Part shown: piece by piece, positions 1,616-23,633 of the stretch
Layout: each line of letters starts with the position of its first letter
How positions within the stretch are numbered: position 1 is the stretch's first letter
Source of the DNA: Gammaproteobacteria bacterium
GTDB taxonomy: Bacteria; Pseudomonadota; Gammaproteobacteria; Steroidobacterales; Woeseiaceae
NCBI GenBank assembly: GCA_013151645.1
Contig: JAADHU010000069.1
Location: 1-64,000 of the forward strand
Length of the DNA stretch: 64,000 nt
Direction: 5' to 3'
Made by a program: the position numbers and the translations under genes
Notes under the pieces: model-generated
What the model saw: only the letters and a program-made list of their open reading frames with translations
What the model was told of the DNA's origin: nothing
Databases searched by the model: none

Positions 1616-2758
1616 ATGGCACAACAATCTGGTAGCGGACTGGTCGTAGAGCGTGTGTCCGGTCGGAAGCAGCTCAAAGCGTTTATTGCATTTCCGCATC
1701 GGATCTATGCCGATGACCCGAACTGGGTAGCGCCGCTGTGGTTTGAGCAGTTGCAGCGCTTTACGGACAAGAATCCCTTTTTTGAACATGCGACCTGGCA
1801 GGCCTGGGTGGTTCGTCGCGGCGAACGGATTGTCGGCCGGATCAGCGCGCAGATTGACGATCTGTTCATGGAGACGCAAGGAGAGAAGACCGGTTTTTTC
1901 GGTTTGATCGAGGCAGAGGACGACGCGGCTGTCTTCGCCTTGTTATTCGAGACAGCCGAAAACTGGCTGCGAGAGCGGGGCATTGAAACCATTCGTGGGC
2001 CGTTCAACCTATCGCTTAACGAAGAATGTGGCTTGCTTGTCGAAGGCTTCGATTCGCCGCCGTACATCATGATGGGCCACGCGCGGCCTTACTATGACGG
2101 TCGCATCAATGCCGCCGGCTACGTGAAAGCGAAAGACTTGTTCGCGTACGAAACGAATCCGGACCAGGTGCTTTCTCCGGTGATGCAGAGATTGCATCGG
2201 AGTATCGGAAAGAACGTTACCGTGCGCCCGTTCAGGCGCAAACAGCTAAAAGAGGAACTCGCGATTCTCCGCGATATTTTTAACGACTCCTGGGCGGGCA
2301 ACTGGGGCTTCACGCCCTTTACCGAAGCCGAGTTTGCCGACGTTGGTGAATTGATCACTTTGTTGATCGACGATGAATACATACAGATTGCCGAAATCGA
2401 AGGGCGTCCGGTCGCGATGTTCGTGGCGGTTCCCGATATCAACCAGGCGGCGAAGGATCTGCACGGGCGTCTCTTGCCTTTTGGCTGGTTGAAGCTTCTC
2501 TGGCGCCTGAAAGTTCGCTACCCGAGCCGGGCGCGAACCATGTTAATGGGCGTTCGGCAGGAGTTTCAAAACAAACGCCTGGGGCCGGTGCTGGCATTTA
2601 TGGTGCTTGATGCCGCTCGCCAGGCGCTGGTTCGACGCAAAATTGATCAGGTCGAAATGTCGTGGGTGCTTGAAGATAACGAGGGCATGAAATCGATCGC
2701 CCTGGCACTGGGCGGGGTACTGCACAAACGCTATCGTATCTACGAAAAGTCCCTTTAA
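1616..2758 (+). CDS. Bacterial ceramide synthase-like GNAT-family N-acyltransferase
   Basis: The product (380 aa) has the layout of the large GNAT-like family that includes the Caulobacter ceramide synthase (bCerS), which joins an acyl chain to the sphingoid base or 3-oxo base. Family-typical stretches are visible: NPFFEHATWQAWV near residue 65, RGPFNLSLNEECGLLVEGFD around 125-145, and a C-terminal GNAT fold with QEFQNKRLGPVLAFMVLD and SWVLEDNEGM. No signal peptide or membrane segment is seen. The ATG at 1616 directly follows an in-frame TTG; an AGGA at about 1602 lies upstream and could serve either. A nucleotidyltransferase gene follows within about 12 bases, and serine palmitoyltransferase lies just beyond, convergent. 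Function follows from family resemblance plus the sphingolipid gene context. Confidence 0.8.
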   Translation: MAQQSGSGLVVERVSGRKQLKAFIAFPHRIYADDPNWVAPLWFEQLQRFTDKNPFFEHATWQAWVVRRGERIVGRISAQIDDLFMETQGEKTGFFGLIEAEDDAAVFALLFETAENWLRERGIETIRGPFNLSLNEECGLLVEGFDSPPYIMMGHARPYYDGRINAAGYVKAKDLFAYETNPDQVLSPVMQRLHRSIGKNVTVRPFRRKQLKEELAILRDIFNDSWAGNWGFTPFTEAEFADVGELITLLIDDEYIQIAEIEGRPVAMFVAVPDINQAAKDLHGRLLPFGWLKLLWRLKVRYPSRARTMLMGVRQEFQNKRLGPVLAFMVLDAARQALVRRKIDQVEMSWVLEDNEGMKSIALALGGVLHKRYRIYEKSL

Positions 2759-2770
2759 CCGGTGACGAAA

Positions 2771-3601
2771 ATGAGTGCGAGCCGAACGGAGATGACGGCC
2801 ATCGTATTAGCCGGGCAACGGGACGGTGAAGACGAGTTGGCGCAACACGCGGGTGCGGCTTGCAAGGCATTCGTGAAGATCGGTGGTCGGCCAATGCTGT
2901 TACGGGTATTGGACACACTGACCGCAACACCCGCAGTCGGCACGATTATTTTGTGTGGCCCGGATGAGGAAAAACTCGCTGGTCAGGATGATGTGCGCAA
3001 ACTGGTTCAGTCGGAAACAGTAACGTGGCAGCCACCACAAGCCGGCCCAAGTGCCAGCGCATACCACGCAATGCGTACGCTGGCTCCCGATACGGCGGCG
3101 TTGTTGACGACGGCGGATCACCCGCTGCTGACGAAAGAAATTGTCAGTGAATTTTGTCGGCAAAGTTTGGCAGCGGACGCAGACGTGGTGATCGGCATGG
3201 CCCCTTACGCATTGGTGCGCGAGGCATTTCCGGGCATGAAAAAAACGGTATTGAATTTCAGAAATGCGGCGCTTTGTGGCTGTAATTTGTTCGCGTTCCT
3301 CACGCCGAAGGGAAGAGAGGCTGCAGATTTTTGGCGAGAACTGGAATCGCAGCGAAAAAAACCACTGCGTATATTCCGTTTCCTCGGTTGGCTGACCGTG
3401 GCGAAGTACTTGCTCGGAAGACTAACCGTCGAGGAAGCGTTGCATACCTTCACTGTCAAGCTGGGCATTAACGTTCGCGTCGCGATACTGCCGTTTGGCA
3501 ATGCGGCTGTCGATGTCGATTCGGTCTCGGACTACCAATTGGTGCAGGAGAAGATTCTGCAGCAAGCCGGTGACACAACGAGACACGATTCGTCGCAGTA
3601 G
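2771..3601 (+). CDS. MobA-like NTP transferase of the sphingolipid cluster
   Basis: This 276-residue protein opens with a nucleotidyltransferase signature: VLAGQRDG, then a conserved Lys in CKAFVKIGGRPML, as in MobA/GlmU-type NTP transferases. The metal-binding region is TTADHPLL. Such enzymes transfer a nucleoside monophosphate to a phosphorylated sugar or polyol, making an activated head-group donor. It is in an operon with the ceramide synthase (12-base gap), which suggests it activates a sphingolipid head group. The substrate cannot be read from sequence. An in-frame GTG at 2762 is an alternative start; ATG 2771 was chosen because neither has a strong ribosome-binding site. The 3' end is convergent with serine palmitoyltransferase, 16 bases apart. 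Confidence 0.7.
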   Translation: MSASRTEMTAIVLAGQRDGEDELAQHAGAACKAFVKIGGRPMLLRVLDTLTATPAVGTIILCGPDEEKLAGQDDVRKLVQSETVTWQPPQAGPSASAYHAMRTLAPDTAALLTTADHPLLTKEIVSEFCRQSLAADADVVIGMAPYALVREAFPGMKKTVLNFRNAALCGCNLFAFLTPKGREAADFWRELESQRKKPLRIFRFLGWLTVAKYLLGRLTVEEALHTFTVKLGINVRVAILPFGNAAVDVDSVSDYQLVQEKILQQAGDTTRHDSSQ

Positions 3602-3617
3602 TTGACGGCCTGTAGGG

Positions 3618-4787
3618 TTATTGAGTCAGCGTAGCGTACGCCGCAATGATGTCCTGTATTTCCGCCTCGCTGTGTGCGGCACTGACGCTACAGCGCAACA
3701 GGCAGAACTCGGCGGGTGATGCGGGCGGAATCACCAGGTTGACGAAAATACCCAGCGCGAACAATTCCTGCCACCACTGAGCCGCTTTGTCCGCGTCGTC
3801 GGTTCTGACCGCAACCACAGGGCTCGCCTGTGGGCCGACCTCGAATCCCAGGTTCTTCAGTTCGGCGTAGAGTCGTTGCGCATTTTTCCACAACTGCCGT
3901 TGCAATTCCGGTCGTTCTTGCATCAATCTCAACGTGGTCCGCGTCGACGCGATGACCGAGGGCGAGGCCGATGCCGTAAATATGTACGAGCGGGTCGCAA
4001 ATCGAATCAGTTCAAGTTCCGCATGATTGCTGACGCAATAGCCACCGATGCTGCCGAGACTTTTGCTGAAGGTTCCGACGAGAAAGTCGGCGTCTGCTTC
4101 GATACCGGCGGCTTCGGCGGCGCCGCGACCTTTATCGCCCATGACGCCCATTGAATGGGCTTCATCCACTAACAGGTAGGCATTGTAGTCGCGCTTGATC
4201 GCTGCAATTTCGGCGAGTGGCGCTACATCACCGAGCATACTGTAGATGCCTTCAACGATGATCAGGGTGTCCCCTTCGCGATCTTTCAGTCGTCGTAATC
4301 GTTTTTCCAGGTCCGCCGGATCGTTGTGGCGGAAACGAATAATGTCAGCGCCACTGAGTCGTACGCCGTCGTAGATACTGGCGTGGGAATCGGCATCCAG
4401 CAAAATAACGTCGCCGGGACCCGCGAGTGTCGCGCTGGTGCCCATCGTAGCCGCATATCCGGTCGAAAAAACGATCGCCGAGCGCGTGCCGAAAAATTCC
4501 GCGAGTTCCTGCTCGAGCTTGATGTGCTCGGCAAACGTTCCGTTGGCCATCCTGGAGCCGGTTGTGCCGGTGCCGTTTTCCGCGACGGCGTCTTGTGCTG
4601 CAGCTACGGCCTCCGGGTCGAACGTCAACCCCAGGTAATTGTTGGTACCGGCAAGAATGACATTTTGTCCATTGACGATGGCCTGCGTGGGCGACAGAAT
4701 TTCTTCCGTTACGGCGCCAAATGGCAGCATGCCGTCAAACTGCTGTTTTAGATCCTGGAATTGTTTGAATTTATCGAACAGGCTCAT
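3618..4787 (-). CDS. spt: Serine palmitoyltransferase (alpha-oxoamine synthase)
   Basis: This PLP enzyme of 389 residues belongs to the alpha-oxoamine synthase family (KBL, BioF, HemA, SPT). It should condense L-serine with a fatty acyl thioester to 3-oxosphinganine in the cytoplasm, the committed step of sphingolipid synthesis. Visible residues are the PLP-stacking His135 (DSHAS), Asp208 and His211 in LLVDEAHSMG, and the Schiff-base Lys242 in GTFSKSLGSIGG. The sequence alone could also fit KBL or BioF. The SPT assignment rests on the acyl carrier protein gene directly upstream (13-base gap) and the ceramide synthase downstream, an arrangement known from Caulobacter and Sphingomonas. It is the last gene of a minus-strand operon beginning at the KdsB-like gene. 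Confidence 0.85.
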   Translation of the reverse strand: MSLFDKFKQFQDLKQQFDGMLPFGAVTEEILSPTQAIVNGQNVILAGTNNYLGLTFDPEAVAAAQDAVAENGTGTTGSRMANGTFAEHIKLEQELAEFFGTRSAIVFSTGYAATMGTSATLAGPGDVILLDADSHASIYDGVRLSGADIIRFRHNDPADLEKRLRRLKDREGDTLIIVEGIYSMLGDVAPLAEIAAIKRDYNAYLLVDEAHSMGVMGDKGRGAAEAAGIEADADFLVGTFSKSLGSIGGYCVSNHAELELIRFATRSYIFTASASPSVIASTRTTLRLMQERPELQRQLWKNAQRLYAELKNLGFEVGPQASPVVAVRTDDADKAAQWWQELFALGIFVNLVIPPASPAEFCLLRCSVSAAHSEAEIQDIIAAYATLTQ

Positions 4788-4800
4788 GAGATATTGGTGC

Positions 4801-5100
4801 TTATTGATTCACTGCGACGACCACTTCCTGGGCCAGATCACGGACCGTGTGGATGTCCGGAAGGCGATTCAGCGGAAAAGAGATATCAAATTCATCTTCG
4901 ACCTCCAGGACCAGTTCCATCACCTGCAGCGATGCCATGCGAATGTCGGCCTGCAAGCCGGTATCCTGGCTGACGCTTAAATCGTCTTTAACGAAGGTAG
5001 TCACTATCGTGATGATTTTCGGTAGTACTTGGTCGTAGTCGGTATTCAAGTCGTTCGGTTTCCATGTTTCGGCAGGCTCATTCGGCGCCACTATACGCAC
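4801..5100 (-). CDS. Acyl carrier protein dedicated to sphingolipid synthesis
   Basis: This 99-residue acidic protein has the four-helix carrier pattern: a helix around DYDQVLPKIITIV, the attachment region MASLQVMELVLEVEDEFDI and a final helix HTVRDLAQEVV. Ser57 (MASLQ) aligns with the phosphopantetheine serine of the usual DSL motif, but the residue before it is Ala rather than Asp. The gene is immediately upstream of serine palmitoyltransferase on the same strand, so the protein probably delivers the fatty acyl chain to that enzyme, loaded by the acyl-AMP ligase at 21858-23633. It has an N-terminal extension of about 20 residues compared with AcpP. No phosphopantetheinyl transferase gene was found in the window. 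Confidence 0.85.
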   Translation of the reverse strand: MRIVAPNEPAETWKPNDLNTDYDQVLPKIITIVTTFVKDDLSVSQDTGLQADIRMASLQVMELVLEVEDEFDISFPLNRLPDIHTVRDLAQEVVVAVNQ

Positions 5101-5148
5101 CTGTCTTTAGCGTTGCCAATATCGGCGCCTGGCAGGATCGTGCCCCGG

Positions 5149-5799
5149 TTAACGCCAGCAATCGGGCAGGTGCGCGAAATCGACGAAGGTGGTGATGTCG
5201 GCTGCGAACAGATTTTCGTCGGTTTCGGCCACCCGTCCCAGGAAGTGGACGTCATTGGCCCGGGCGCCATCCAGATCGGCAATCGCGTCGCCGATCATGA
5301 CGCAACGGTTGGCCGGCAATCCGTGTTCCTGCAGCAATTCCGCGATGTTGTCGGCCTTCGAGCTGGGTGAGCCCCAAATACCGGCGAAAACAGGGGCCAA
5401 CCTGCGCTGCTGAATAATTTCGTTCAATTCGGCCGTGGGAGTCCCCGAAACGACGAAAAGCGGTAAATGGCGGCCGGCACTGTCCAGAAACGCCTGGGCG
5501 CCCGTGACCATCGGCGCGGCAACCACACGTTCCATTACCAAAACCGAAAAGTCATTGGCGAGCTCGGCAACGGCGGAATCTGTGAGTGGGGGCTTACCCA
5601 ATATCTCGGTCTGGAAATAGCGAAATTTGTCGAAGCGGGAGACCCCGCCATTATTCAGGTGGTAATTTTCAACCTGTGCAACGACCTTATCGCCGTATTT
5701 TTCATAAAGGGATGCAAAGGCGCGTGTCTTGACGTCGACGGACTCGACCAGCACGCCGTCAAAATCGAAAATAATCGCGTCCAGGCCTTGCAGGTTCAT
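5149..5799 (-). CDS. HAD-superfamily phosphatase
   Basis: This 216-residue protein has the full HAD hydrolase motif set: motif I DFDGVL with nucleophile Asp12 and acid Asp14, motif II VVSGT, a Lys in GSPSSKADNI (motif III) and IGDAIADLDGA (motif IV). The helical segment after motif I indicates a phosphoglycolate-phosphatase-like cap (subfamily IA). Its place in a minus-strand operon with an aldolase and a CMP-sugar synthetase suggests it removes phosphate from a sugar-acid intermediate, the job KdsC does in the Kdo pathway. KdsC proteins are smaller and of another HAD type, so this would be a functional analogue. The substrate is inferred. Confidence 0.75.
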   Translation of the reverse strand: MNLQGLDAIIFDFDGVLVESVDVKTRAFASLYEKYGDKVVAQVENYHLNNGGVSRFDKFRYFQTEILGKPPLTDSAVAELANDFSVLVMERVVAAPMVTGAQAFLDSAGRHLPLFVVSGTPTAELNEIIQQRRLAPVFAGIWGSPSSKADNIAELLQEHGLPANRCVMIGDAIADLDGARANDVHFLGRVAETDENLFAADITTFVDFAHLPDCWR

Positions 5800-5813
5800 G
5801 ACCGGTCCGGGCT

Positions 5814-5890
5814 GTGAGCCATTCGAAAACCGCGTTTTTCGACGTGCGCTGTTGAAAATACCATGGCTGGGTTTTTCAACAGACTGCTAG
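5814..5890 (-). repeat. Truncated copy of a MITE-like element
   Basis: Read on the minus strand, this stretch begins with CTAGCAGTCTGTTGAAAAA and continues through CCATGGTATTTTCAACA and a GTCGAAAAACGCGGTTTTCGA hairpin-like part to GGCTCAC. It matches the first about 80 bases of the complete element at 63129-63294 with few mismatches. The right half, including the opposite terminal repeat, is missing. It lies between the epimerase and HAD genes inside an operon, and its first TAG is the stop codon of the epimerase gene. Confidence 0.75.
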
Positions 5891-6810
5891 TCGAGTTCTG
5901 GCAGGTTGGCGCGTGAATGATCGTATCGATCCGATTCCTGCTGTAGTTGTAATTCGCCGATGCATTCGAGAAGGCCCTGGCCCAGATCCACGAAATCGGT
6001 GCCGACCAGCTTGTGGCCGATATTGGGCTGGTAGGCGTACGGCGTCATTGTGTAGTGACTGACGGGATTGCCCTCGGCAAACTCGAGTTTGACGTCGCCG
6101 GGTAAGATTTCGGCAATCATTTGCATGACATCGCGCACGCGCATGCGTTCGGTCCCGGTCAGCACCAGGTGCCGGTTTGCATACTTTGCTTCGAGTATTT
6201 GCAGGCTGAGTCGTGCAGCATCGGTGACATGGATGTATTCCCGAACGGCTTCACCATTGCCGCCGTAGGTGATGCATTCGTCATTCAGGGCTTGTCGCAA
6301 CATGCGAAAAACGCCATTGTGCCGATCGGCCCTGGGTCCGTACAGCGAGCCGTAACGCAGGATGGTGTAGTCGAGGCCGTAACGTGAATGATAGGTTTCG
6401 ACAAAGCGCTCTGCGCCCTGTTTGCTCGCCCGGTAGAACGAGCCGGATTCTGAAAAGACGTACACGCTGCTGGCGAAAACATAGCGTTTTACCTGGGCCA
6501 GCCTGGCCGCTTCCAGCAACGTTACGGCACCCAGGACATTGACCTCGGCCGTCCTGACCGGATTGTCGTGCGCTTCATCGATGTCGGCGACAGCCGCGAA
6601 GTTGTACAGTGCAACGGCGCCTTTTACGGCATCGAGTGCCTGATCCAGGTCGGTGATGCTGCCAATCACCATCTCCTGATCGTCGCGCAAATAAGGCGAT
6701 TTCGTTCGGTCGAATATAACGACCTGGTATCCGGCATCGGAAAGCGTATCCGCGACATGGCTGCCCAGGAAGCCGCTACCACCAAAGACAACGATTTTTT
6801 CCGCGGTCAC
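5887..6810 (-). CDS. NAD-dependent nucleotide-sugar epimerase/dehydratase (extended SDR)
   Basis: This extended short-chain dehydrogenase of 307 residues has the nucleotide motif GGSGFLG at residues 10-16, the catalytic FASSVYVF segment (Ser114/115) and Tyr126-x3-Lys130 in FYRASKQ. LRYGSLYGPR and GNGEAVREYIHVTDAA are typical of UDP-sugar 4-epimerases and related enzymes, which change sugar nucleotides. GTG 6810 was chosen as start because it makes a GTGA overlap with the stop of the preceding dehydrogenase gene; a longer ATG start at 6846 is less likely. The stop codon lies inside a MITE-like repeat. A role as ceramide reductase cannot be excluded, since that enzyme is also an SDR, but the gene at 20872 fits better by context. 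Confidence 0.75.
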   Translation of the reverse strand: MTAEKIVVFGGSGFLGSHVADTLSDAGYQVVIFDRTKSPYLRDDQEMVIGSITDLDQALDAVKGAVALYNFAAVADIDEAHDNPVRTAEVNVLGAVTLLEAARLAQVKRYVFASSVYVFSESGSFYRASKQGAERFVETYHSRYGLDYTILRYGSLYGPRADRHNGVFRMLRQALNDECITYGGNGEAVREYIHVTDAARLSLQILEAKYANRHLVLTGTERMRVRDVMQMIAEILPGDVKLEFAEGNPVSHYTMTPYAYQPNIGHKLVGTDFVDLGQGLLECIGELQLQQESDRYDHSRANLPELD

Positions 6811-7754
6811 GATTTCGCTCCATTCTCGATGACACCGGCCTCGCAAAGACCCGTATACAGGTTTTCAGCGGCTTCGCACTCCATCTGACGTCGCGACTCA
6901 ATGGCGCTGGAGGCGAGATGCGGAGTGAGTACGACCTGCGACAAGTCCCGCAACGGACCGGTGTACGGTTCTGTTTCAAATACGTCCAGTCCGGCGCCGG
7001 CAAGCCGGCCGTTCTGCAGTGCCTCAAACAACGCTTTTTCATCGACAAGATTGCCGCGTGCTGTATTGATCAAGATTGCGCCCGGCTTCATGGCGGCCAG
7101 GCTTTCACTATTAATAACATGGTGCGTGGCTGCGCTGTATGGCATATGCAGGCTCACGATATCGGCCTGCGCCAGGAGATCGTGCAACTCAAGCCGCTTC
7201 ACCGTCGATGCCGTGTCGGCAGCGATGGGGTCGTGCGCCACCACTTCGGCTCCGAATGCAGAGCACAGGCTCGCAACCCTGGAGCCGATTCGTCCCAGTC
7301 CCAGGATGCCGACTGTCTTGGATTTGAGCAATCGACCCTTCAGGCGCGGCCATCTGCCATCGCGAACCTGGCGATCCGCTGCCGGAATTTGCCGCAATGC
7401 GGCCAGCATCAAGCCAAGGGTCATTTCAACAACGGCATCCACTGGTGCGTCCGGCGTAGAAAACACATTGATGTTGCACTTCGCCGCGGCGTCCTGGTCC
7501 ACACTGTCCAGGCCAACGCCAAGACGGGATATGACGGTAAGTCGCCGGGCATTGGTTAAGACCTGTGCGGTCAGTGGTTCGACACCGGCCAGCAGCCCGA
7601 CCACAGAATCCGTCAGCAGTTCGCCGATTTCCGTTTCGGTCAGTTTGCGCCCGAAGGGATTGGTTGTAATAGAAAGCCCGGCTGCCCGTAACCGGTCGAT
7701 CCCGGGGTTATCGTCCACATTGAACGATGAGGTGGAAATAATGATGTCAGTCAT
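6807..7754 (-). CDS. D-isomer-specific 2-hydroxyacid dehydrogenase (SerA-like)
   Basis: The 315-residue product oxidises or reduces a 2-hydroxy/2-oxo acid with NAD(P). The Rossmann motif GLGRIG is at 152-157. The family's catalytic trio is visible: Arg233 (NTARGNLVDE), Glu262 (VFETEP) and His279 (TPHLASS). No C-terminal ACT domain is present, so this is a short type, not regulated phosphoglycerate dehydrogenase. ATG 7754 overlaps the end of the aldolase gene by 8 bases and is preferred to a start at 7775. Between an aldolase and an epimerase in a glycan operon, it may make a hydroxyacid precursor (for example a glycerate or sugar acid) for the glycan; that is inference. Confidence 0.8.
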   Translation of the reverse strand: MTDIIISTSSFNVDDNPGIDRLRAAGLSITTNPFGRKLTETEIGELLTDSVVGLLAGVEPLTAQVLTNARRLTVISRLGVGLDSVDQDAAAKCNINVFSTPDAPVDAVVEMTLGLMLAALRQIPAADRQVRDGRWPRLKGRLLKSKTVGILGLGRIGSRVASLCSAFGAEVVAHDPIAADTASTVKRLELHDLLAQADIVSLHMPYSAATHHVINSESLAAMKPGAILINTARGNLVDEKALFEALQNGRLAGAGLDVFETEPYTGPLRDLSQVVLTPHLASSAIESRRQMECEAAENLYTGLCEAGVIENGAKS

Positions 7755-8538
7755 GTCGATTCCGTATCTCGGCAAGGTCCCGGCGACACAATGAATCGAG
7801 GATACGAATGTCGAGTGCGTAGCCCATGAATCGATAGCCGGAATCGATCAGGCCGTAAAGCGCATCAAGATCGGGTTCGACCACGTGCAATCCACCCGTT
7901 TTGTTCATCGCCTTGCCCGCTTCGCAGACGCGTGCAATCGCTTTTTGCACGTCGGGGTGGGTGATCTCACCGGGCATACCCATCGAAGCTGAAAGATCAT
8001 AGGGCCCGATGATGAACGCGTCGACACCGGCAACGCCGAGAATCTCCTCAATGTTGTCTACCGCATCTCTGTGTTCAATCATCACCACCACGACGGCGTG
8101 GTCTTGCAACCATTCAAGGTAGGGTTTGAATCCGGCACCATAGCCCTGTGCTCTGGCGAGGCCGACGCCGCGTGTCCCTTTGGGCGGATAGTAGGTATGG
8201 CGTACGGCCGCTTCTGCGTCCGCAGCACAATTTACCATGGGTACCATGATGCCGGTGGCGCCGGCGTCCATGACGCGCTTGATTTGATTGGCATCGTTGG
8301 ATGTCAGGCGGACGATGGCAGGGCAGTCGTGGGCATCCATGGCTTGTATCAGTGCCTGCACATCCGACAGTTCGAGTGCACTGTGTTCGGTATCGAGCAC
8401 CAGCCAGTCGAAGCCGGCGCTCGCCATGATCTCCGCAATGGAGGCGTGCCCCAGCGTGACCCAGGAGCCGATCGTCAGTTCATTGTTCGCCAGTCGCCGC
8501 TTGAGCGTTGCTGACCTGGAGTTTTCATCGGTGCGCAT
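7747..8538 (-). CDS. HpcH/HpaI-family class II aldolase
   Basis: The 263-residue product matches the pyruvate-dependent HpcH/HpaI aldolases, metal enzymes that split or form 2-keto-3-deoxy acids from pyruvate and an aldehyde. Typical pieces are WLVLDTEHSALEL near residue 45, PMVNCAADAEAAV near 100, PPKGTRGVGLARAQGYG near 120, a metal-ligand Glu in VVVMIEH and a metal-ligand Asp in GPYDLSASMG. The gene starts 34 bases after the KdsB-like gene and overlaps the dehydrogenase. The linkage to a CMP-sugar synthetase of the Kdo type suggests it makes a 2-keto-3-deoxy sugar acid rather than degrading aromatics. The substrate is not known. Confidence 0.8.
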   Translation of the reverse strand: MRTDENSRSATLKRRLANNELTIGSWVTLGHASIAEIMASAGFDWLVLDTEHSALELSDVQALIQAMDAHDCPAIVRLTSNDANQIKRVMDAGATGIMVPMVNCAADAEAAVRHTYYPPKGTRGVGLARAQGYGAGFKPYLEWLQDHAVVVVMIEHRDAVDNIEEILGVAGVDAFIIGPYDLSASMGMPGEITHPDVQKAIARVCEAGKAMNKTGGLHVVEPDLDALYGLIDSGYRFMGYALDIRILDSLCRRDLAEIRNRHD

Positions 8539-9322: not shown

Positions 9323-9396
9323 CTGATGATTATCCCATTTTGTCCGTGTAAAATAGTCCGTCCCGCATGACATCTCTGCCCACCAACGGCCGCATC

Positions 9397-15719: not shown

Positions 15720-16805
15720 ATGTTAGTCGATCGCTATCTGCTGCGCGAAGTGAGTGTACCCTTTGTCGGCGTCAGCGGCGCTCTCCTGGCGATTTTTCTG
15801 ACTTACAGCATCACCGCGATGCTGGCCAAAGCCAGTGCGGGACTTCTGAATCCAAGTGAAGTGGCGAATCTGACTTTTCTCAAATCGATAGTCGCACTGG
15901 AAGTGTTGTTGCCCGTTGGTATGTATCTGGGCATCATTCTTGGACTAGGTCGCCTCTACAGTGACTCTGAAGTGTACGCGTTACAATCCGCCGGGATCGG
16001 CGAGAGTCGTTTTCTTCGACCGGTGATCGGCTTCGCGGCCATGATCGCGGTCCTGATTGGTTTGATATCAACGGTCGCGCGTCCCTGGGCCTACCAGCAG
16101 GTTTACCAACTGGGTGCAATCGCTGCAGCATCATCTGAACTTGAGCGCATTAAGGCCGGGCGATTTTACGTCGACGACGACGTAGGCCGGGCGGTATTTA
16201 TCCAGGGTCTGTCCGATGATCGTCAACAGCTGCAGGGTGTGTTTGTTCGCAGCCGGGATGACAAGGGACTTCAAGTCGTCTCTTCGGCGACAGGTCGATT
16301 TGAACCCTACGCCAGGAAAAACCATCACAAAATCGTTCTGGACGATGCCTATGTGTACAAGAAGGTAAACGATGGACCGAACGTACTGGGACAGTTTAAG
16401 TCGTTGACGCTTTATCTCACGGCGGCTACGCCGGCGCTCAACCGACACAAGGTTAAGGCGCAATCAACATTTTCGTTGCTCGATGCGAAGACTCCGGAAG
16501 ACAAGGCTGAGTTCCAGTGGCGCCTGTCGACGTCGGTATCAACACTGCTGCTTGCCCTCGCCGCCGTGCCGTTAAGTCGTTCATTGCCACGCCGTGGTCG
16601 CTATGCCAAAACCATGATCGCATTGCTGGTTTATGCCTTGTATCTGAATTTCCTCATGATGGCCAAGACCTGGGTAGAACAGGAGAAACTGGGATCAATC
16701 TGGTGGGTACCCGGGCTTTTCGCGGTGCTGGTTGTGGTTTTTTACGAGCCCTGGCGAATATTCGTACGACGCCGAAAACTGAAAAATCAACATGTCGATC
16801 ATTGA
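15720..16805 (+). CDS. lptF: LptF-like permease of the lipopolysaccharide-type export complex
   Basis: The 361-residue protein has the LptF/LptG layout: MLVDRYLLREVSVPFVGVSG, three N-terminal membrane helices, a periplasmic jellyroll (about 130-250, GRFYVDDDVGRAVFIQGLS and GRFEPY) and three C-terminal helices (LLLALAAVPLSRSLPRRGRYA). LptF and LptG form the membrane part of the LptB2FG ABC transporter, which extracts a glycolipid from the inner membrane. GGAGAGG precedes the start. It overlaps lptG by 14 bases. No lptB or lptC is in the window, so the ATPase must come from elsewhere. This may be the cell's only LptF or a second copy with another cargo. Confidence 0.85.
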   Translation: MLVDRYLLREVSVPFVGVSGALLAIFLTYSITAMLAKASAGLLNPSEVANLTFLKSIVALEVLLPVGMYLGIILGLGRLYSDSEVYALQSAGIGESRFLRPVIGFAAMIAVLIGLISTVARPWAYQQVYQLGAIAAASSELERIKAGRFYVDDDVGRAVFIQGLSDDRQQLQGVFVRSRDDKGLQVVSSATGRFEPYARKNHHKIVLDDAYVYKKVNDGPNVLGQFKSLTLYLTAATPALNRHKVKAQSTFSLLDAKTPEDKAEFQWRLSTSVSTLLLALAAVPLSRSLPRRGRYAKTMIALLVYALYLNFLMMAKTWVEQEKLGSIWWVPGLFAVLVVVFYEPWRIFVRRRKLKNQHVDH

Positions 16806-17859
16806 TCGTTTCATAGCACGCAATTTTCTCAGCGGAGCGTCGATCGTGCTGATGATCCTGCTGTCGTTGTTCGCCTTCCTGACCCTGGCGGAAGCGCTGG
16901 AAGACGTCGGCAAAGGGATGTTTACTACCTTTGACGCGCTGACTATCGTCGGCTATTCCCTGCCCAGGCTGATGCTGGACCTGCTGCCGGTGACTGCCTT
17001 GCTGGGCGTGCTGATTGGCCTCGGCGCGATGGCGAACAACCAGGAACTGACTGTCCTGCGAGCGGCCGGTTATTCGGTCGGTCGTATTGCGTGGCCCGTT
17101 GTTGAGGTCGTCATCGCGGCCACCGTTATAGTACTAATTCTGCAGTTTTTCGTGGTGCCGGATCTGGAGCTTAGTGCCGCTCGTGTCAGGGCCAAGACGT
17201 CGATCGAGACCACCATCGTTAGCGACGAAGGAGGGTCCTGGACGCGCAGCGGCAATCGCTTTGTGCGTATCGGACAGATCATTCAGCACGGCGAATTGCG
17301 CGACGTGGAGATTTTCGCCCTGGGTGAAGATGCGCAACTGGAAGAAGTTATGCAGGCGACCAGTGTGCAGGTGCTCGATGGTGGCCAATGGCTGCTGCGG
17401 GATGTCACGGTGACCGATCTGAGCAGCGGCGAGATCACAGAGGAACATCTAAACAGCAAGGTATGGCGCAGCTTCCTGTCGGCACAACAGACGTCGGCGC
17501 TGATAGTGCCGGTTGAGGCCATGGCGCCTTTGGCTCTGTATCGATACATCCGTCAACTTGACGAAAATGACCTCGATACACATCGTTATCGAGTCATGCT
17601 GTGGCAGCAACTGAGTATTCCCATCGGTCTGCTGGCGATGGCTTTACTGGGATTTCCGTTTCTGCTGGGCTCCGGTCGGGCGATATCGGCCGGCCAGCGT
17701 GCAGCGATCGGAGGGAGCATTGGTATTCTGTTTTATCTTTTCGAGCAAATGATCGGGCACTTCGCCATCCTGTTCGAACTCAGCCCGGCGCCGGCCGCGT
17801 TTGCGCCGGACCTGGTGTTGCTGACACTGGCACTGGTCATTTTGCGACGGGCACGCTGA
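16792..17859 (+). CDS. lptG: LptG-like permease of the lipopolysaccharide-type export complex
   Basis: The 355-residue protein is the usual partner of LptF. It starts MSIIDRFIARNFLSGASIVL, has the inner-membrane block LPRLMLDLLPVTALLGVLIGLGAMANNQELTVLRAAG split over helices two and three, and a periplasmic domain (SDEGGSWTRSGNRFVRIG, VQVLDGGQWLLRDVTV). The C-terminal part contains HRYRVMLWQQLSIPIGLLAM followed by FPFLLGSGRAIS. These are family-typical. Its start lies inside the end of lptF, so the two are coupled. The flippase gene follows 25 bases later, likely in one transcript. Confidence 0.88.
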   Translation: MSIIDRFIARNFLSGASIVLMILLSLFAFLTLAEALEDVGKGMFTTFDALTIVGYSLPRLMLDLLPVTALLGVLIGLGAMANNQELTVLRAAGYSVGRIAWPVVEVVIAATVIVLILQFFVVPDLELSAARVRAKTSIETTIVSDEGGSWTRSGNRFVRIGQIIQHGELRDVEIFALGEDAQLEEVMQATSVQVLDGGQWLLRDVTVTDLSSGEITEEHLNSKVWRSFLSAQQTSALIVPVEAMAPLALYRYIRQLDENDLDTHRYRVMLWQQLSIPIGLLAMALLGFPFLLGSGRAISAGQRAAIGGSIGILFYLFEQMIGHFAILFELSPAPAAFAPDLVLLTLALVILRRAR

Positions 17860-17884: not shown

Positions 17885-19222
17885 ATGGATAGCCAATCAA
17901 CCGAGAAGCAGTCGCTGCTGGACCGTGCCGCCAGGAATTTCGGACGATTGTTGCGTGGGCGCGGCGTTGCGGCGGTGCTGGAACTGTTAACAGTCGCGAT
18001 ACTGGCTCGGGCGCTATCGCCCGCGGAATTCGGCCAGATTGTACTTATTCAGACCTATGTCCTGATCGTTCGCGGCTTGTTCAACTTCAAGTTGTTTGAA
18101 GCCGTGATACGTTTCGGTGTCCCTGCACTCGAGGCTCACGACGATGTTTCGCTGCGGCGATTGTTGCGATTGACGCTTTTTATCGATCTTGCCGCCAGCG
18201 CACTGGCGACGGTTGTCGCGGTGTTGGCGGCGCCACTGGTGGCGATATTCCTCGATTGGGACTCGTCGCTGGTGCTTGCTGCGATGCTCTATAGCAGCGT
18301 GCTGGTGACGGCGGGCATTGGTACACCGAAAGGCATCCTGCGCCTGTTCGACCGTTTCGACGTGCTGGGAATTCAACTAATGGTCAGCCCGGTACTGCGC
18401 CTCGGCGGCGTCATTCTTGCGCTGTCACTGGACGCCAATCTGTTGTGGCTGGTCGTGGTTCTGGCGCTGGGGACGCTGGCGGGAAATTTCTATCTCATCG
18501 CCCGTGGTTGGCAGGTATTTCAAGATCGGGTTGGCGGGAGCGTACTGCGTGGGCCGTCACTTAAAGCGTGGCAACAGGCCTTCCCGGGCCTGCGCGCTTT
18601 CCTGACGATCGTTTATCTTCAAACCAATGTCGATATGTTGCCGAAACACGTTTCCACACTGCTTGCAGGTTCTCTTCTCGGACCGGCTGCCGCTGGCATG
18701 TTGCGGCTGGCGCGCGAAGCGACGAAGATTCTGTCGAAGCCCGGAGCATTGCTGCAGCAAGTCTTGTTTCCGGATCTGGTACGTCTTTGGGGGCGCGGCG
18801 CGGACAGCTTCCGCATGATTTTGCTGCGTGCTTTATTGATATCCGGCCTTTTTGGTGTCGTTTTTATCGTGGCTTCGATCTTTGGCGGACGCCTGCTGTT
18901 CAGCAGCGCCCTGGGCCCCGATTATGCGGAGGCCGCTCCATTGCTGACCCTGCTATTGCTTTCTGCGACGCTTGAACTGGCCGGTATCGTACTGCGTGCA
19001 GCGGGCTACGCGATCGGTCATGCCGGCGAGATACTGCGACTTCATCTGCTTAGCGCGGTGATTTACCTGGCGTCGTTTACTTTTCTTGCGCCACGCATGG
19101 GATTGATCGGTCCGGGGATCGCCGCCTGCGTCGCGGCGACAGTGACGTTAGTGGGTATTGGCTGGATGGTTGCGAAAAGTATTCGCGAAACGCCACTGGA
19201 ATCCGACGAAGCACGCGGTTGA
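17885..19222 (+). CDS. Wzx-like polysaccharide/lipid flippase (MOP superfamily)
   Basis: This 445-residue, very hydrophobic protein has about 12 to 14 membrane segments. It starts with an amphipathic region and the family-typical LLRGRGVAAVLELLTVAILARALSP split over the first helix, followed by FGQIVLIQTYVLIVRGLFNF. Later it has LLQQVLFPDLVRLWGRG and a final paired-helix region. Such proteins flip undecaprenyl-linked sugars or other lipid-linked glycans across the inner membrane. The gene follows lptG and is convergent with the acyltransferase gene (9 bases apart). In this locus it could flip a lipid-linked oligosaccharide or the glycosylated lipid before Lpt-like extraction. Confidence 0.78.
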   Translation: MDSQSTEKQSLLDRAARNFGRLLRGRGVAAVLELLTVAILARALSPAEFGQIVLIQTYVLIVRGLFNFKLFEAVIRFGVPALEAHDDVSLRRLLRLTLFIDLAASALATVVAVLAAPLVAIFLDWDSSLVLAAMLYSSVLVTAGIGTPKGILRLFDRFDVLGIQLMVSPVLRLGGVILALSLDANLLWLVVVLALGTLAGNFYLIARGWQVFQDRVGGSVLRGPSLKAWQQAFPGLRAFLTIVYLQTNVDMLPKHVSTLLAGSLLGPAAAGMLRLAREATKILSKPGALLQQVLFPDLVRLWGRGADSFRMILLRALLISGLFGVVFIVASIFGGRLLFSSALGPDYAEAAPLLTLLLLSATLELAGIVLRAAGYAIGHAGEILRLHLLSAVIYLASFTFLAPRMGLIGPGIAACVAATVTLVGIGWMVAKSIRETPLESDEARG

Positions 19223-19231
19223 GATTGCCGG

Positions 19232-20197
19232 CTACCCCTTGCGGTGGCTGCGGTTGTCGATGTCAGCGTAGGCCTCGTGAGGCCACCGGCGACCAAAGCA
19301 CATCCATTGATCCGGCGTCTCGCGAATCCAGCTTTCAAAGTAGGCGAGGAGTTGCTGTGTCATTTGATGCGCTTGCTCACTGGCCGATGCCGCCGGATCT
19401 TCGGGTTTGATGGGCGGGAAGACCGTTATTCGAAATCGCATGTCGGGCAGGCGCTCGGCCCGTACCGGCAGTAAATCGCAGTTATGTCGCTGCGCCAGGC
19501 GGGCGGCGGTTGTATTGGTCGGTGTGGGCACACCGAAAAAATCCAGCGGATCGCCGCTGTCCAGGCGTGTGTCGGTGACCATGCCAACGATGAACTTTCG
19601 TTTGAGTTCCTGCGTCAGCCCGCGCATGCAGCCATCGCGCGAAATCCATTCGCAGGGGAGGGCCGTTCGCAAACGCAGAAAAAGATCGGCCAGGAACGGG
19701 TTTTTTTCCGGTGCGAAAATAGAGGTGATGCGCAATTTATATTGCGAGGCTACAAAAGTCGATATTTGCCAGGCGCCAATATGGCCGGTCACCATGACGG
19801 CGGCGTTCCCGCGGTAGTCCGCGAGGTTTACACCGTCGGCGACGACAAACTCAATGCGGTCGTCGCGTTCGAGCCAAATACGCTCGGCAAACACGAGCTC
19901 AGCGGCGGCATTGCCCAGGTTGCCGCAAACATCCCGCGTCAGTTGTCGTATTTCCCGCGGCTCTTTTTGCGGAAAAGCCAGGCTCAGATTGCGTCGGATC
20001 TTCGACGTAAAAGGCAGTGCAAAGCGGAGATTTCTGAAAACGAAGTTGGCGAATATTGCAGCGCGTTCCGGCGTCATGCTTTGCATTAGCTTTAGCAGAG
20101 ATCGGACAACAAAAGCCTCAAGCCGCCAGCTCAGGTTTCGTAGCGACGGCAATTTTTCAATGAGCCGTGCGGAAAATAGAAAATGCTGTTGTGCCAT
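19232..20197 (-). CDS. LpxL/HtrB-family acyltransferase with altered HX4(D/E) motif
   Basis: The 321-residue protein is of the lipid A secondary acyltransferase type: KIRRNLSLAFPQKEPREI near 67-84, the catalytic region VMVTGHIGAWQIS, FIVGMVTDTRLDSGDPLDFFG and TPTNTTAARLAQRHNCDLLPV. The catalytic His139 is present, but the acidic residue of the HX4D/E motif is Gln144. This may lower activity or change it. ATG 20197 was chosen because it falls just after the hydroxylase stop; longer starts overlap that gene. It is the last gene of a minus-strand operon with an acyl ligase, an SDR and a fatty-acid hydroxylase, so its acceptor may be a sphingolipid-type lipid rather than lipid A. Confidence 0.78.
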   Translation of the reverse strand: MAQQHFLFSARLIEKLPSLRNLSWRLEAFVVRSLLKLMQSMTPERAAIFANFVFRNLRFALPFTSKIRRNLSLAFPQKEPREIRQLTRDVCGNLGNAAAELVFAERIWLERDDRIEFVVADGVNLADYRGNAAVMVTGHIGAWQISTFVASQYKLRITSIFAPEKNPFLADLFLRLRTALPCEWISRDGCMRGLTQELKRKFIVGMVTDTRLDSGDPLDFFGVPTPTNTTAARLAQRHNCDLLPVRAERLPDMRFRITVFPPIKPEDPAASASEQAHQMTQQLLAYFESWIRETPDQWMCFGRRWPHEAYADIDNRSHRKG

Positions 20198-20201
20198 CGT
20201 G

Positions 20202-20792
20202 CTAGTGCAGTGTGCCGAAGACCCAGTCCCACAACGGTGAGCTAACGCCGTACTTCGCATTCTTGGCTGAAAAATGATGCCGCATGTGATGGTGCTTCAA
20301 GGCTTGCAGAAGCGGGTGGCGCATCTTGAAGTGATGCGTCGCGTAATGAATGTAGTCGTAGATCAAATAGCCGACAATAAAAAACGCGCAAAATGGCTCT
20401 GCCCAGGGTGCCGGGATAATCGCCGAGAAGATGAGCCAGATAAAGGCCAATACGATGATCGCGCCGGTCGGCGGCATGACCAATCGCGTCTTGTCGGCCG
20501 GCACGTCGTGATGCACGCCATGAAAGAGGTAGACCAGCCATTTACCCGTTTTACTCTTGGCTGGAAAGTGGAACAGGTAACGGTGCAGCAAATACTCTGT
20601 CAGCGTCCATACGATCAAGGCCGGCAATATCAGCGCGGCCAGCTGACTAACGGGCAGCTGGTGCACCGCCACGGCGCGCCACAGCAGAAAGCCGACCACG
20701 GGAGACCAGAACAACAAGGGAACGATCGGATGTACGTGGGTCAGCGACTCCATCATGTCGTTCTTGAAAAGTCGTACTGACTTCTTTTTCAT
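20202..20792 (-). CDS. Fatty-acid 2-hydroxylase-like membrane di-iron enzyme
   Basis: The 196-residue membrane protein carries the histidine boxes of the fatty acid hydroxylase superfamily: EYLLHRYLFH, HGVHHDVPAD, DYIHYATHHF and HHHMRHHF, between four membrane segments. The order and spacing resemble FA2H/Scs7, which 2-hydroxylate the N-acyl chain of ceramides; these lack the cytochrome b5 domain here, so an external electron donor is needed. ATG 20792 has AGGA nine bases upstream and is preferred to a start at 20822. Its place next to a ceramide-reductase candidate and an acyl-ACP ligase supports a sphingolipid substrate. The exact carbon hydroxylated cannot be read. Confidence 0.85.
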   Translation of the reverse strand: MKKKSVRLFKNDMMESLTHVHPIVPLLFWSPVVGFLLWRAVAVHQLPVSQLAALILPALIVWTLTEYLLHRYLFHFPAKSKTGKWLVYLFHGVHHDVPADKTRLVMPPTGAIIVLAFIWLIFSAIIPAPWAEPFCAFFIVGYLIYDYIHYATHHFKMRHPLLQALKHHHMRHHFSAKNAKYGVSSPLWDWVFGTLH

Positions 20793-20871
20793 GTCAAATG
20801 ATCCTGATCGATAGCCGATCACAGTATAGAGCCTGGTCGAAAATTATACAGGGAGACGCGTCCATCCTGGG

Positions 20872-21831
20872 TCATTTTTCGGCCAGAAATTCGACTTCGG
20901 AACCGGCCCAGTCGGGCGTTGCTCGCAGACCTTTTGCAAGTTGGGTCGCGGGACTCCAGCCAGACAAACGCTGAAACTCGGTACCATCGCAGACCCAGTC
21001 ATGGTGCCGCAGTTCGCGCAGCTTCTGCGGGGTCAGCATGGGGGCGGTGCCGAAGTGGATGCCGAGTCGCGCATTGACCCAGGCGGGAGCGTCGAGCAGC
21101 CATGAGGGCGCCTGCATCACGCGAATTTTTCGGTGGCACAAACGACTTACAATTTCGCTGACTTCGTGCCAGTCGTAGCCGCAAGGCTGGCCGTCATCCA
21201 GGGGGAAAGTGGCTCCCGCTGCAAGATCGCCTTTGAGCCAGGCGAGGATAGCGGCGCTCAGGTCTTCGACATACAACAGTGAAAATCGGGCATGAGGCGA
21301 ACCGGCAGTCAGGGCGATTCCGCGCGCCATCAATCGAAAAACGGGTAGCATTTCACGGTCGCCCGGTCCATACACCGCGGGCGGGCGCAGAACGGTCCAG
21401 GGTATGCCCGCGCCTTCGTCGTGCAGCACTTGTTCAGCCCGACGTTTGCTGGCGGCATAAAATGAAAGTTGCGGTTCGCGTGCTGCGAGCGATGAGAGCG
21501 CGAGTAGTCTTGGTGCAGGTTGCACGCTCCTGATGGCTTGCAAAAGGCGGCTCGTTCCGTCGACGTTGACGCGATCAAACTGAGCCTGAGTGGCACCCCG
21601 GACATTGCCGGCACAATGAATTACCGCGTCCGTATTCGCCACCAGATGCCGCAGGCTTTGCACGTCGTCCAGATTGCCAGCGATAAGATCAGCACCTTTG
21701 AGTGCTGGCAAGGATGCCTTTGCGGGACTGCGCACCAGCGCACGAACGGAAAACCCCTGGTCTCGCAGTCGCCTGCAGATAGACTGGCCGATAAACCCGG
21801 TTGCGCCTGTGATCGCAATTGTTTGCTTCAA
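20872..21831 (-). CDS. NAD(P)-dependent SDR, candidate ceramide reductase
   Basis: The 319-residue extended SDR begins MKQTIAITGATGFIGQSICR (GxxGxxG) and has LLALSSLAAREPQLSFYAASKRRAEQVL, giving the catalytic Ser and YxxxK. LRPPAVYGPGDREMLPVFRL is typical of 3-beta-HSD/ceramide-reductase-like proteins. In Caulobacter an SDR of this kind (CerR) reduces the 3-oxo group during ceramide synthesis and lies near an acyl-ACP synthetase. The same pairing is seen here: the acyl-AMP ligase ends 26 bases upstream. The assignment is by family plus neighbours. A UDP-sugar epimerase role is the main alternative. Confidence 0.72.
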   Translation of the reverse strand: MKQTIAITGATGFIGQSICRRLRDQGFSVRALVRSPAKASLPALKGADLIAGNLDDVQSLRHLVANTDAVIHCAGNVRGATQAQFDRVNVDGTSRLLQAIRSVQPAPRLLALSSLAAREPQLSFYAASKRRAEQVLHDEGAGIPWTVLRPPAVYGPGDREMLPVFRLMARGIALTAGSPHARFSLLYVEDLSAAILAWLKGDLAAGATFPLDDGQPCGYDWHEVSEIVSRLCHRKIRVMQAPSWLLDAPAWVNARLGIHFGTAPMLTPQKLRELRHHDWVCDGTEFQRLSGWSPATQLAKGLRATPDWAGSEVEFLAEK

Positions 21832-21857
21832 GGGAGGGGTACCGTTTTGCGCCGGGT

Positions 21858-23633
21858 TCAGGCGATCGATTTTCTCAATTCGTTCTCATCCGCAATTTCA
21901 ATCAGTCGATCGAGATTGTGTGCGGCCATGAAGTTCAGGCGGGCTTTGGAGCGTGACAATTTGCCGGATGAGGTGCGCGGCAGTTGCCGCTTTGACACGA
22001 GAGTAATGTAACAGTCGATGCCAAGTTCATTGCGAATAATGCCGGTCAGGCGGGAAATAAGCGCTGAGCGTTTAACCGGATCGGCCTGGCGGCATTGAAT
22101 CTTGAGCACGCAAATCTCGCCACCGCTCGGATTTGGTACGGAAAATGCGAGTGACCCGCCAACGCGTACCTCGGGCTGTTGCTCGGCGAGGAATTCGAGA
22201 TCCTGAGGCCAGACATTCTTGCCGTTGATGATAATCAGGTCTTTTTCCCGACCGGTAATGACGATATTCGATTCGACCTGGTAGCCGAGGTCGCCGGTAT
22301 TGAGCCAGCCATCCTCGGACAATACCGCCCGGGTACTTTCAGGATCGTTCAAATAGCCGGACATTACGCTTGGGCCGCGCAAGAAAATTGTGCCGCTGTG
22401 ACGGTCAGGAAGGTTGTTTCCCGATGCATCACGGATTTCAATTTCAAAGTCAGGCAACAGGTAGCCGCATTTGACGAATCGTTTTGCCCTGGAGTGGTCG
22501 GGGTGTGAAGGTTCAATGGGCAACGCCTGTTGATGCTGGGACAAGTGATTGGCATCGATACAATCCGTTTCCACACCCTGAAACAGGGGCGCGAAGCTGA
22601 TTGCCAGAGAGCACTCCGCCATGCCGTAGCAGGCCAGAAATGCGCTGTCCTTAAAACCAGCGGGTTCCAGTACGCGGGCAAACTCTTCCAGCGTTTCGGG
22701 GCGAATCATTTCCGCGCCAATGCCGGCCATGCGCCAGTTACTCAAGTCGTATTTCCTGGCCTCGTTGGGGCGCAGGCGTCGGGCGCACAGGTCATAACCA
22801 AACGACGGACCAAAAGAAATAGTCGCTTTGGTCAGCGTCATCAGGTTGAGCCACTGCCTGGGCCGCACGGCAAACTCTCGCGTGTCCAGGTAGTCGACCG
22901 AGCGTTGTGCAGCGACAGGAACCAGCAACAGGCCGATCAGGCCCATATCGTGATAGAACGGCAGCCACGAGAAAAAGCGATCGTCGGTTTGCAGTTTGAT
23001 GCCGTGGCGAATGATGCCGGTCAAATTGCTCATTACCGTTTCTTGCGTGATAACCACGCCTCGCGGGAAGCGCGTACTGCCGGAGGTAAATTGAATGTAG
23101 GCCGTGTCGCCGGGTTCGATCGACGGCAATGCGTCGCTTCCTTCCGGTAGTTTGTCGAAATCGGCGGGATCGCCTACAAACTTGATGTCATAACCGTCGA
23201 CGGCTTCCAGCAGGAACGAGATATAGCCACTCGAGGCCATCGCGACGGAGACTTCGGCGCCCTTGATGAGTCGGGCAAGTTGTTGCACGTACGCCTTGTG
23301 ACCGCCGAGGGTTAACGTTGCGGGAAACGCGACCGGCACCAGGCCGGCGTATTGGCAGGCGAAGAAAAAGACCAGGAAGTCCGGATTGGTTTCTGCGACC
23401 AGTCCCATTCGAGCTCCTTTCGGCAGACCCAGTCCCTGCAGCTTGCGCGCCAACGTTCGCGCCTGGCGTCTCAATTCGTGATAGGGCAGGCGGGCGGATT
23501 GCTCGCCTCTACCGGTAAAAAAGTTGGCGCCGGTGCTGCCTTGCGCTGCGTAGTCCAGCGCGTCTACCAGGGTAGTAAAACCGCCTCCCTGGAACTCGAT
23601 AGTGTTCCGGGATGGTGTGATCTCAATCTTCAA
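21858..23633 (-). CDS. Fatty acyl-AMP ligase / acyl-ACP synthetase (FAAL-like)
   Basis: The 591-residue adenylate-forming enzyme activates a fatty acid as acyl-AMP and passes it to a carrier protein. The ATP-binding motif is FTSGSTRFPRGVV (182-194); SWLPFYHDMGLIG, YGMAECSLAISF, GWLNTGDLGYQ and a C-terminal TSSGKLSRSKAR are typical of FAAL-type ligases. There is no carrier domain of its own, so the partner is probably the carrier protein at 4801-5100. TTG 23633 was chosen as start because AAGGGGA lies eight bases before it; an upstream in-frame TTG at 23684 has no such site. In Caulobacter a related synthetase loads the sphingolipid carrier protein. Confidence 0.82.
   Translation of the reverse strand: MKIEITPSRNTIEFQGGGFTTLVDALDYAAQGSTGANFFTGRGEQSARLPYHELRRQARTLARKLQGLGLPKGARMGLVAETNPDFLVFFFACQYAGLVPVAFPATLTLGGHKAYVQQLARLIKGAEVSVAMASSGYISFLLEAVDGYDIKFVGDPADFDKLPEGSDALPSIEPGDTAYIQFTSGSTRFPRGVVITQETVMSNLTGIIRHGIKLQTDDRFFSWLPFYHDMGLIGLLLVPVAAQRSVDYLDTREFAVRPRQWLNLMTLTKATISFGPSFGYDLCARRLRPNEARKYDLSNWRMAGIGAEMIRPETLEEFARVLEPAGFKDSAFLACYGMAECSLAISFAPLFQGVETDCIDANHLSQHQQALPIEPSHPDHSRAKRFVKCGYLLPDFEIEIRDASGNNLPDRHSGTIFLRGPSVMSGYLNDPESTRAVLSEDGWLNTGDLGYQVESNIVITGREKDLIIINGKNVWPQDLEFLAEQQPEVRVGGSLAFSVPNPSGGEICVLKIQCRQADPVKRSALISRLTGIIRNELGIDCYITLVSKRQLPRTSSGKLSRSKARLNFMAAHNLDRLIEIADENELRKSIA

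Follow-up and report, generated by a model that had tools for sequence, protein, structure and literature searches.

Known sphingolipid loci and the locus studied here

Ceramide is a lipid better known from animals and plants. In bacteria, the closest described systems are the Caulobacter crescentus cluster CC_1152–CC_1168 (Olea-Ozuna 2024, PMC11324152), the contiguous ceramide diphosphoglycerate (CPG2) locus of Azotobacter vinelandii (L148; PMC11324152), and the Escherichia coli spt/yghO locus, reported for E. coli B (BL21 and enterotoxigenic E. coli B7A; PMC9386255). Here, we describe a locus in a 64,000-nucleotide stretch (the window) of contig JAADHU010000069.1, assembly GCA_013151645.1. 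At the gene level, it is nearly certain to encode ceramide synthesis; we consider it likely that this complete Caulobacter-type dihydroceramide pathway is part of a larger locus for the synthesis and export of an anionic glycosylated ceramide lipid. Its ceramide genes are nothing unusual among such bacteria, and a gammaproteobacterial host is already known; the interleaved headgroup and export module is new. The transport route of bacterial sphingolipids to the outer membrane has been stated as not known (PMC11324152); in the locus, one conserved block unites a headgroup module with a flippase and a second Lpt set and offers candidate genes for each step.

A first-pass annotation of the window considered the locus notable in a gammaproteobacterium. 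The host indeed belongs to the GTDB class Gammaproteobacteria (genomes G262 and G150, assigned to its class, match an Immundisolibacter record at 81–88% nucleotide identity), but such loci have been published for E. coli B (PMC9386255) and, in PMC11324152, for A. vinelandii and Pseudomonas luteola. A majority of complete E. coli genomes have one too: 4,009 of 5,426 contain 80% or more of the equivalent region (L114:5000–11200). The E. coli block is annotated as fatty acyl-AMP ligase, spt, yghO, epimerase, and lptG, in one place on a plasmid. The same annotation bounded the locus at 1616–23633, which is too narrow, since contig C30 carries the continuation of the locus to the left of the window; the annotation also left out the unusual part, namely the genes for headgroup and export that lie among the ceramide genes, together with CpgB/CpgC just off the window.

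The locus resembles the Caulobacter cluster in its five ceramide genes, CerS beside a CofC/MobA-like transferase gene, CpgB, CpgC (frameshifted in this assembly), a second LptF/LptG pair, and a flippase. Unlike that cluster, it has no CpgA and no clear CpgD, keeps AasR–CerR and AcpR–Spt in separate transcription units, and adds a sugar-acid module, a GT-B glycosyltransferase, a GT8/ELM1 fusion, a 2-oxoglutarate (2OG) oxygenase, a sulfotransferase, an LpxL-like acyltransferase, and an in-locus fatty-acid hydroxylase (FAH). The A. vinelandii locus, also gammaproteobacterial, has core genes 35–56% identical to those of the window and the same arrangement of CerS and the nucleotidyltransferase gene (NTPt) followed by LptF2–LptG2; however, it contains CpgA–D and none of the sugar/sulfate module. 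The E. coli locus shares the fatty acyl-AMP ligase, reductase, acyl carrier protein (ACP), Spt, YghO (CerS), and an extra LptF/LptG, but in the compared stretch lacks NTPt, CpgB/C, and the sugar module. Roseovarius, Litorirhabdus, and G127 loci (L095, L081, L050–L051) share the core genes, NTPt, FAH flanked by LpxL-like genes, and an ELM1-type glycosyltransferase, with CpgB/CpgC common to the window locus, L095, and G127; the HpcH/KdsB-like module, 2OG oxygenase, and sulfotransferase are absent from the stretch examined of these loci.

Ceramide core genes

The ceramide genes and FAH of the window are:
1613..2758, plus strand: CerS, bacterial ceramide synthase (GNAT fold, E. coli YghO family); Pfam Acetyltransf_1 at the cut-off, 44–72% identity to CerS of sphingolipid loci
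3618..4787, minus strand: Spt, serine palmitoyltransferase (SPT); NF047599, PDB SPT matches, tree, pyridoxal phosphate (PLP) motifs
4801..5100, minus strand: AcpR, dedicated ACP; PF00550, conserved phosphopantetheine serine
20202..20822, minus strand: FAH, histidine-box membrane oxygenase; PF04116 (4e-20), His boxes
20872..21831, minus strand: CerR, 3-oxo-ceramide reductase of the SDR family; PF01370, 46% identity to A. vinelandii CerR, adjoins AasR in nearly all loci
21858..23684, minus strand: AasR, fatty acyl-AMP ligase/acyl-AcpR synthetase; NF006624 (746 bits, cut-off 600), 82% identity in the sister genus

Spt passes the NCBI equivalog model for SPT (NF047599; 604 bits, cut-off 500) and stays below the cut-offs of the BioF/KBL models (335 bits with bioF TIGR00858, cut-off 426; 311 bits with NF005394, cut-off 460). 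Its best relatives in the PDB are Sphingomonas SPTs at 419 bits, compared to 219 for the best KBL and 189 for the cysteate acyltransferase chain 28eh. The motifs SHASI (134), DEAHS (208), SKSLG (241), and LLRCS (363), covering the PLP-lysine, stacking His, Asp-His, and Arg of PLP enzymes, are aligned to Sphingomonas SPT. In the tree, Spt falls within a clade of SPTs from sphingolipid loci, the E. coli enzyme included, while the BioF-like paralogue of the same genome, a separate gene on contig C35, is far outside this clade. Hence, the possibility raised earlier that the 3618–4787 protein might group with KBL or BioF did not hold. By homology, Spt is predicted to convert serine and acyl-AcpR to 3-oxosphinganine.

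The phosphopantetheine serine of AcpR is aligned to a serine in all listed homologues, and CerS homologues in the above identity range adjoin other core genes in dozens of genomes. All five genes of the Caulobacter dihydroceramide pathway (AasR, AcpR, Spt, CerS, CerR) are found in one locus. They do not form one aasR–cerR–acpR–spt run as in Caulobacter: AasR–CerR lie with FAH and the LpxL-like gene (19–24 kb), and AcpR–Spt with the sugar module (3.6–9.4 kb). Such a single run is a trait of the Caulobacter locus, and the chemistry does not need it. The SDR protein at 5887–6846 was considered as CerR and rejected, being 29% identical to A. vinelandii CerR vs. 46% for the one at 20872–21831, which adjoins AasR.

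The open frames that the first-pass annotation had assigned to SPT, ACP, CerS, an SDR reductase, an acyl-AMP ligase, and a fatty-acid hydroxylase are each present approximately where it put them, at 1.6–23.7 kb. Its equation of the core set with the Caulobacter ceramide pathway agrees with the SPT model, the PDB matches, the AcpR serine, and the homologous loci; the interpretation that by a wide margin best explains Spt, CerS, CerR, AcpR, and AasR together is ceramide synthesis.

Left end of the window and the Cpg genes

The last 91 bases of contig C30 are identical to the first 91 of the window, and homology to CpgC crosses this join. The features here are:
C30:5015-5998: CpgB ceramide kinase homologue; 33% identity to A. 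vinelandii CpgB, function by homology only
1..750, plus strand: CpgC homologue (Tam41-like, CDP-DAG-synthase-like) whose 5' end lies on contig C30; tblastn match to A. vinelandii CpgC, intact in the sister-genus genome G754
747-1622, on the strand opposite to CpgC/CerS: DUF3108 protein between CpgC and CerS; not found in the other sphingolipid loci compared

CpgB is a known ceramide kinase (PMC10331486), and CpgC acts after CpgB (PMC11324152). The CpgA, CpgB, CpgC, and CpgD labels of the A. vinelandii query frames were assigned from domains and the published contiguity of the orthologues (PMC11324152). With the CpgC query, tblastn aligns residues 78–222 at 12–449 and residues 233–324 at 472–747 (41–48% identity). 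CpgA (CDP-alcohol transferase) has no match up to E = 1 in the 98%-complete genome of the host and none in the G754 cluster; by tblastn, the same query detects CpgA in many other sphingolipid loci. CpgD (cytidylyltransferase) is absent from the locus, and the only substantial match in the genome, on contig C12, is 36% identical, compared to 46–60% in most CPG2-type loci, and may be another nucleotidyltransferase. As CpgA was not found and CpgD is uncertain, the CPG2 end product of Caulobacter is unlikely here.

Sugar-acid module and the GT-B glycosyltransferase

A block of six genes is interleaved with AcpR–Spt:
5149..5799, minus strand: HAD phosphatase, last module gene; PF00702, conserved in the module
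5887..6846, minus strand: SDR epimerase/dehydrogenase (EPI) of the module; PF01370, module synteny
6807..7775, minus strand: D-2-hydroxyacid dehydrogenase (2HADH), phosphoglycerate dehydrogenase-like; PF02826, PDB matches
7747..8538, minus strand: HpcH/HpaI class II pyruvate aldolase; PF03328, PDB YfaU/HpaI at about 151 bits, motifs TEHS, IEHR, and GPYDLS
8573..9373, minus strand: KdsB-like CMP-ulosonate synthetase (KdsBl); NF009905 (289 bits, cut-off 255)
9367..10662, plus strand: UNK431, GT-B glycosyltransferase, candidate CMP-ulosonate transferase; AlphaFold model, fold search, gene context

KdsBl, HpcH, 2HADH, EPI, HAD, AcpR, and Spt share a strand and follow each other at spacings of −40 to 87 bp. 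HpaI-type aldolases form 4-hydroxy-2-oxo acids from pyruvate, and KdsB-type enzymes attach CMP to the anomeric carbon of 2-keto sugar acids. Together, the aldolase (HpcH), phosphatase (HAD), and KdsB-like enzyme of the module look like a route similar to that of 3-deoxy-D-manno-oct-2-ulosonic acid (Kdo) with a different aldolase. The locus points to a sugar-acid route combining an HpaI aldolase and a KdsB paralogue, of which a limited literature search found no published description. The second KdsB-like gene of the genome, on contig C74, is 37% identical to the module paralogue; this match (G000:C74:38811-39560) has one TAG inside the matched stretch.

UNK431 was modeled poorly from four sequences (predicted local distance difference test score 52), while seven sequences gave a usable AlphaFold model with a GT-B fold (predicted template modeling score 0.81) and fold neighbors with Z up to 25.3. 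These are general GT-B proteins (UDP-GlcNAc 2-epimerases, PglA, BshA), so the fold leaves the donor unfixed; KpsC/KpsS-type enzymes are absent among the fold matches listed, which excludes nothing. The similarity to PF05159 (KpsC/KpsS, Kdo/ulosonic acid transferase) is weak (E = 0.075, 12.9 bits, under the 20-bit cut-off). UNK431 adjoins the module KdsB-like gene in the window, in the sister genus, and in L136 and L160; copies with no KdsB-like gene nearby are found in L159 and in the stretch examined of L139. A search of the phylum sample yielded only one further, distant relative. The relative in genome G397 is 25% identical and has a KdsB-like stretch at a distance of about 1 kb; no sphingolipid gene was seen in its vicinity. 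Given the GT-B fold, the weak PF05159 signal, and a KdsB-like neighbor even in G397, UNK431 is the best candidate to transfer the sugar of the module.

Other decoration and export genes

The remaining genes of the locus are:
2762..3601, plus strand: NTPt, MobA/CofC-like nucleotidyltransferase, putative CC_1153 orthologue, second gene of the CerS unit; Pfam NTP_transf_3
10717..13218, plus strand: three-part protein, GT8-like, methyltransferase-like, and ELM1-type GT-B; PF06258 (4e-46), weak PF01501 and PF13489
13218..13928, plus strand: 2OG-Fe(II) oxygenase; PF13640 just below the cut-off, also in sphingolipid loci L036, L055, and L078
13805..14908, plus strand: sulfotransferase; PF13469 above the cut-off, PAPS-loop motif GRSGTS, also in locus L055
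15094..15678, minus strand: LptA-like periplasmic protein; PF03968, TIGR03002 at 52 bits (cut-off 72)
15720..16805, plus strand: LptF2, second LptF; TIGR04407 (299 bits, cut-off 230)
16792..17859, plus strand: LptG2, second LptG; TIGR04408 (310 bits, cut-off 240)
17885..19222, plus strand: MOP-type flippase (Polysacc_synt); PF01943, near LptFG2 in other sphingolipid loci
19232..20260, minus strand: LpxL/HtrB-like acyltransferase; PF03279 (3e-33), HIGAW motif, with FAH in other sphingolipid loci

NTPt and its positional counterpart in A. vinelandii are 42% identical, and NTPt comes after CerS in most loci; the GT8/ELM1 fusion has near-full-length homologues in other sphingolipid loci; the true start of the sulfotransferase is probably downstream of 13928. 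A separate LptFG pair is encoded on contig C24, and LpxC is also found elsewhere in the genome; therefore, the Lpt set of the locus is an extra one, and lipopolysaccharide (LPS) is presumably also made.

The LpxL-like and fatty-acid hydroxylase genes travel together in L048, L051, L081, L092, and L095 (Roseovarius, Halieaceae, and other unrelated taxa), as well as at 19232–20822 of the window, and such loci often hold two LpxL-like copies. The pairing suggests an acyloxyacyl ceramide as a possible product. Literature searches on acyloxyacyl ceramide, sulfated bacterial sphingolipids, and an HpcH/CMP-Kdo cluster gave no relevant paper, as judged by title and abstract.

Conservation and distribution

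Three genomes of the sister genus (G754, G766, G789) retain the gene set in syntenic order, although the G766 and G789 loci are cut by the ends of the contig or of the retrieved stretch. The order in G754 is CpgB–CpgC–LpxL, Flip–LptG2–LptF2, LptA, Sulfo–2OG–ELM1–UNK431, KdsBl–HpcH–2HADH–EPI–HAD–AcpR–Spt, and NTPt–CerS–FAH–CerR–AasR; G766 has an additional ELM1–2OG–FAH set. Amino-acid identity between the window and the sister genus is 52–82%, the synonymous rate dS is well above the nonsynonymous rate dN where computable (dS being saturated for some genes), and third-position change far exceeds that at first and second positions in 21 of the 21 genes compared. The locus genes are under purifying selection, and their presence is not accidental.

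In Nitrosospira-type loci, the module (whole in L136, part in L142) lies just beyond CerS–NTPt–LptF2–LptG2. The ELM1 fusion and the 2OG oxygenase recur in unrelated sphingolipid loci, in L055 together with the sulfotransferase. The locus also illustrates an exchange of headgroup genes among sphingolipid loci whose other genes are conserved.

Among 369 genomes of the class, CerS is present in 24, mostly adjoining other core genes, and UNK431 in two, both CerS-positive (hypergeometric P 0.004, kinship ignored). CerS was found in none of the other listed genomes of the same family; within the order, close homologues (70–72%) belong to another family, f263. Either gain by transfer or recurrent loss would agree with this patchy distribution. 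Homologues of CerS also occur, in several cases with core genes, in L084, L087, L089, L090, L105, L110, and L146, from metagenome-assembled genomes labeled Nitrospirota, Gemmatimonadota, Methylomirabilota, and Chloroflexi; some of these may be binning errors.

Proposed pathway and alternative interpretations

By homology to characterized enzymes, AasR would load a free fatty acid onto AcpR, Spt would condense the acyl chain with serine, and CerS would N-acylate the 3-oxo base prior to reduction by CerR; in Caulobacter, acylation precedes reduction (PMC11087976). FAH is the probable hydroxylase of a chain, and a further acyl group may come from the LpxL-like enzyme. CpgB is predicted to phosphorylate the ceramide, and CpgC, frameshifted in this copy, to activate or extend ceramide phosphate, both by homology. 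As CpgA was not found, the headgroup would not receive a second phosphoglycerate; its extension would instead fall to the GT8/ELM1 fusion, the GT-B enzyme, and the sulfotransferase. The GT-B enzyme would probably use a 2-keto-3-deoxy sugar acid that is made and CMP-activated by the HpcH aldolase, HAD phosphatase, and KdsB-like enzyme; export of the product to the outer membrane may rely on the flippase, LptA-like protein, and LptF2/G2, in analogy to the Lpt path of LPS. The product is likely a ceramide-phosphate lipid with a CMP-activated acidic sugar, sent to the outer membrane via its own Lpt parts, and probably a glycolipid not described before; we infer its headgroup from the genes. A fuller picture, possible but tentative, is a sphingolipid counterpart of lipooligosaccharide beside normal LPS: an acylated, hydroxylated ceramide-phosphate with a non-Kdo ulosonic acid (made by an HpaI-type aldolase, CMP-activated by a KdsB paralogue), further sulfated and hydroxylated, which its own LptA/F/G set would place in the outer membrane.

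Several observations weigh against this assignment of an anionic glycosylated ceramide lipid. The product is predicted from its genes, and CpgB is the sole assigned headgroup step with a characterized orthologue. The CpgC reading frame is shifted near 450–472 in this assembly and intact in G754; an assembly error and a genuine loss are both possible explanations. The co-occurrence of UNK431 with CerS rests on two genomes. In G323, the six module genes lie together at 0.07 Mb of a 3.7-Mb contig, a long way from CerS at 2.18 Mb, and therefore the module can act apart from the locus; a second UNK431 copy in this genome has no module genes nearby. The G323 arrangement, the distant UNK431 of G397 near another KdsB-like stretch, and the KdsB-like, flippase, and LpxL-like families, typical of LPS or capsule loci, would all agree with real ceramide genes to which the sugar module and GT-B enzyme, serving LPS or capsule, are mere neighbors. 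We consider this rather unlikely: the module and AcpR–Spt form one apparent operon in two genera, the module adjoins sphingolipid genes in Nitrosospira too, every genome of the class sample in which UNK431 was seen is CerS-positive, and the host genome has another KdsB-like gene elsewhere.

A rearranged Caulobacter CPG2 pathway would account for CpgB, CpgC, the CC_1153-like NTP transferase, LptF2/G2, and the flippase, but is quite improbable given the CpgA result in both the host genome and the G754 cluster, and the low identity and separate contig of the sole substantial CpgD-like match. Least probable is that the PLP enzyme is another alpha-oxoamine synthase, i.e., BioF, KBL, or the cysteate acyltransferase of sulfonolipid synthesis. 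These belong to the same fold family, and a sulfotransferase is nearby; however, the SPT equivalog is passed and the BioF and KBL models are not, the scores against SPT and 28eh and the tree agree, and the partners CerS, CerR, AcpR, and AasR are present.

Outside the genes listed above, an FtsX/MacB-type permease is followed by a CrtC/AttH-type lipocalin protein at 36563–40274 of the window, with an open reading frame at 35865–36563 just upstream.

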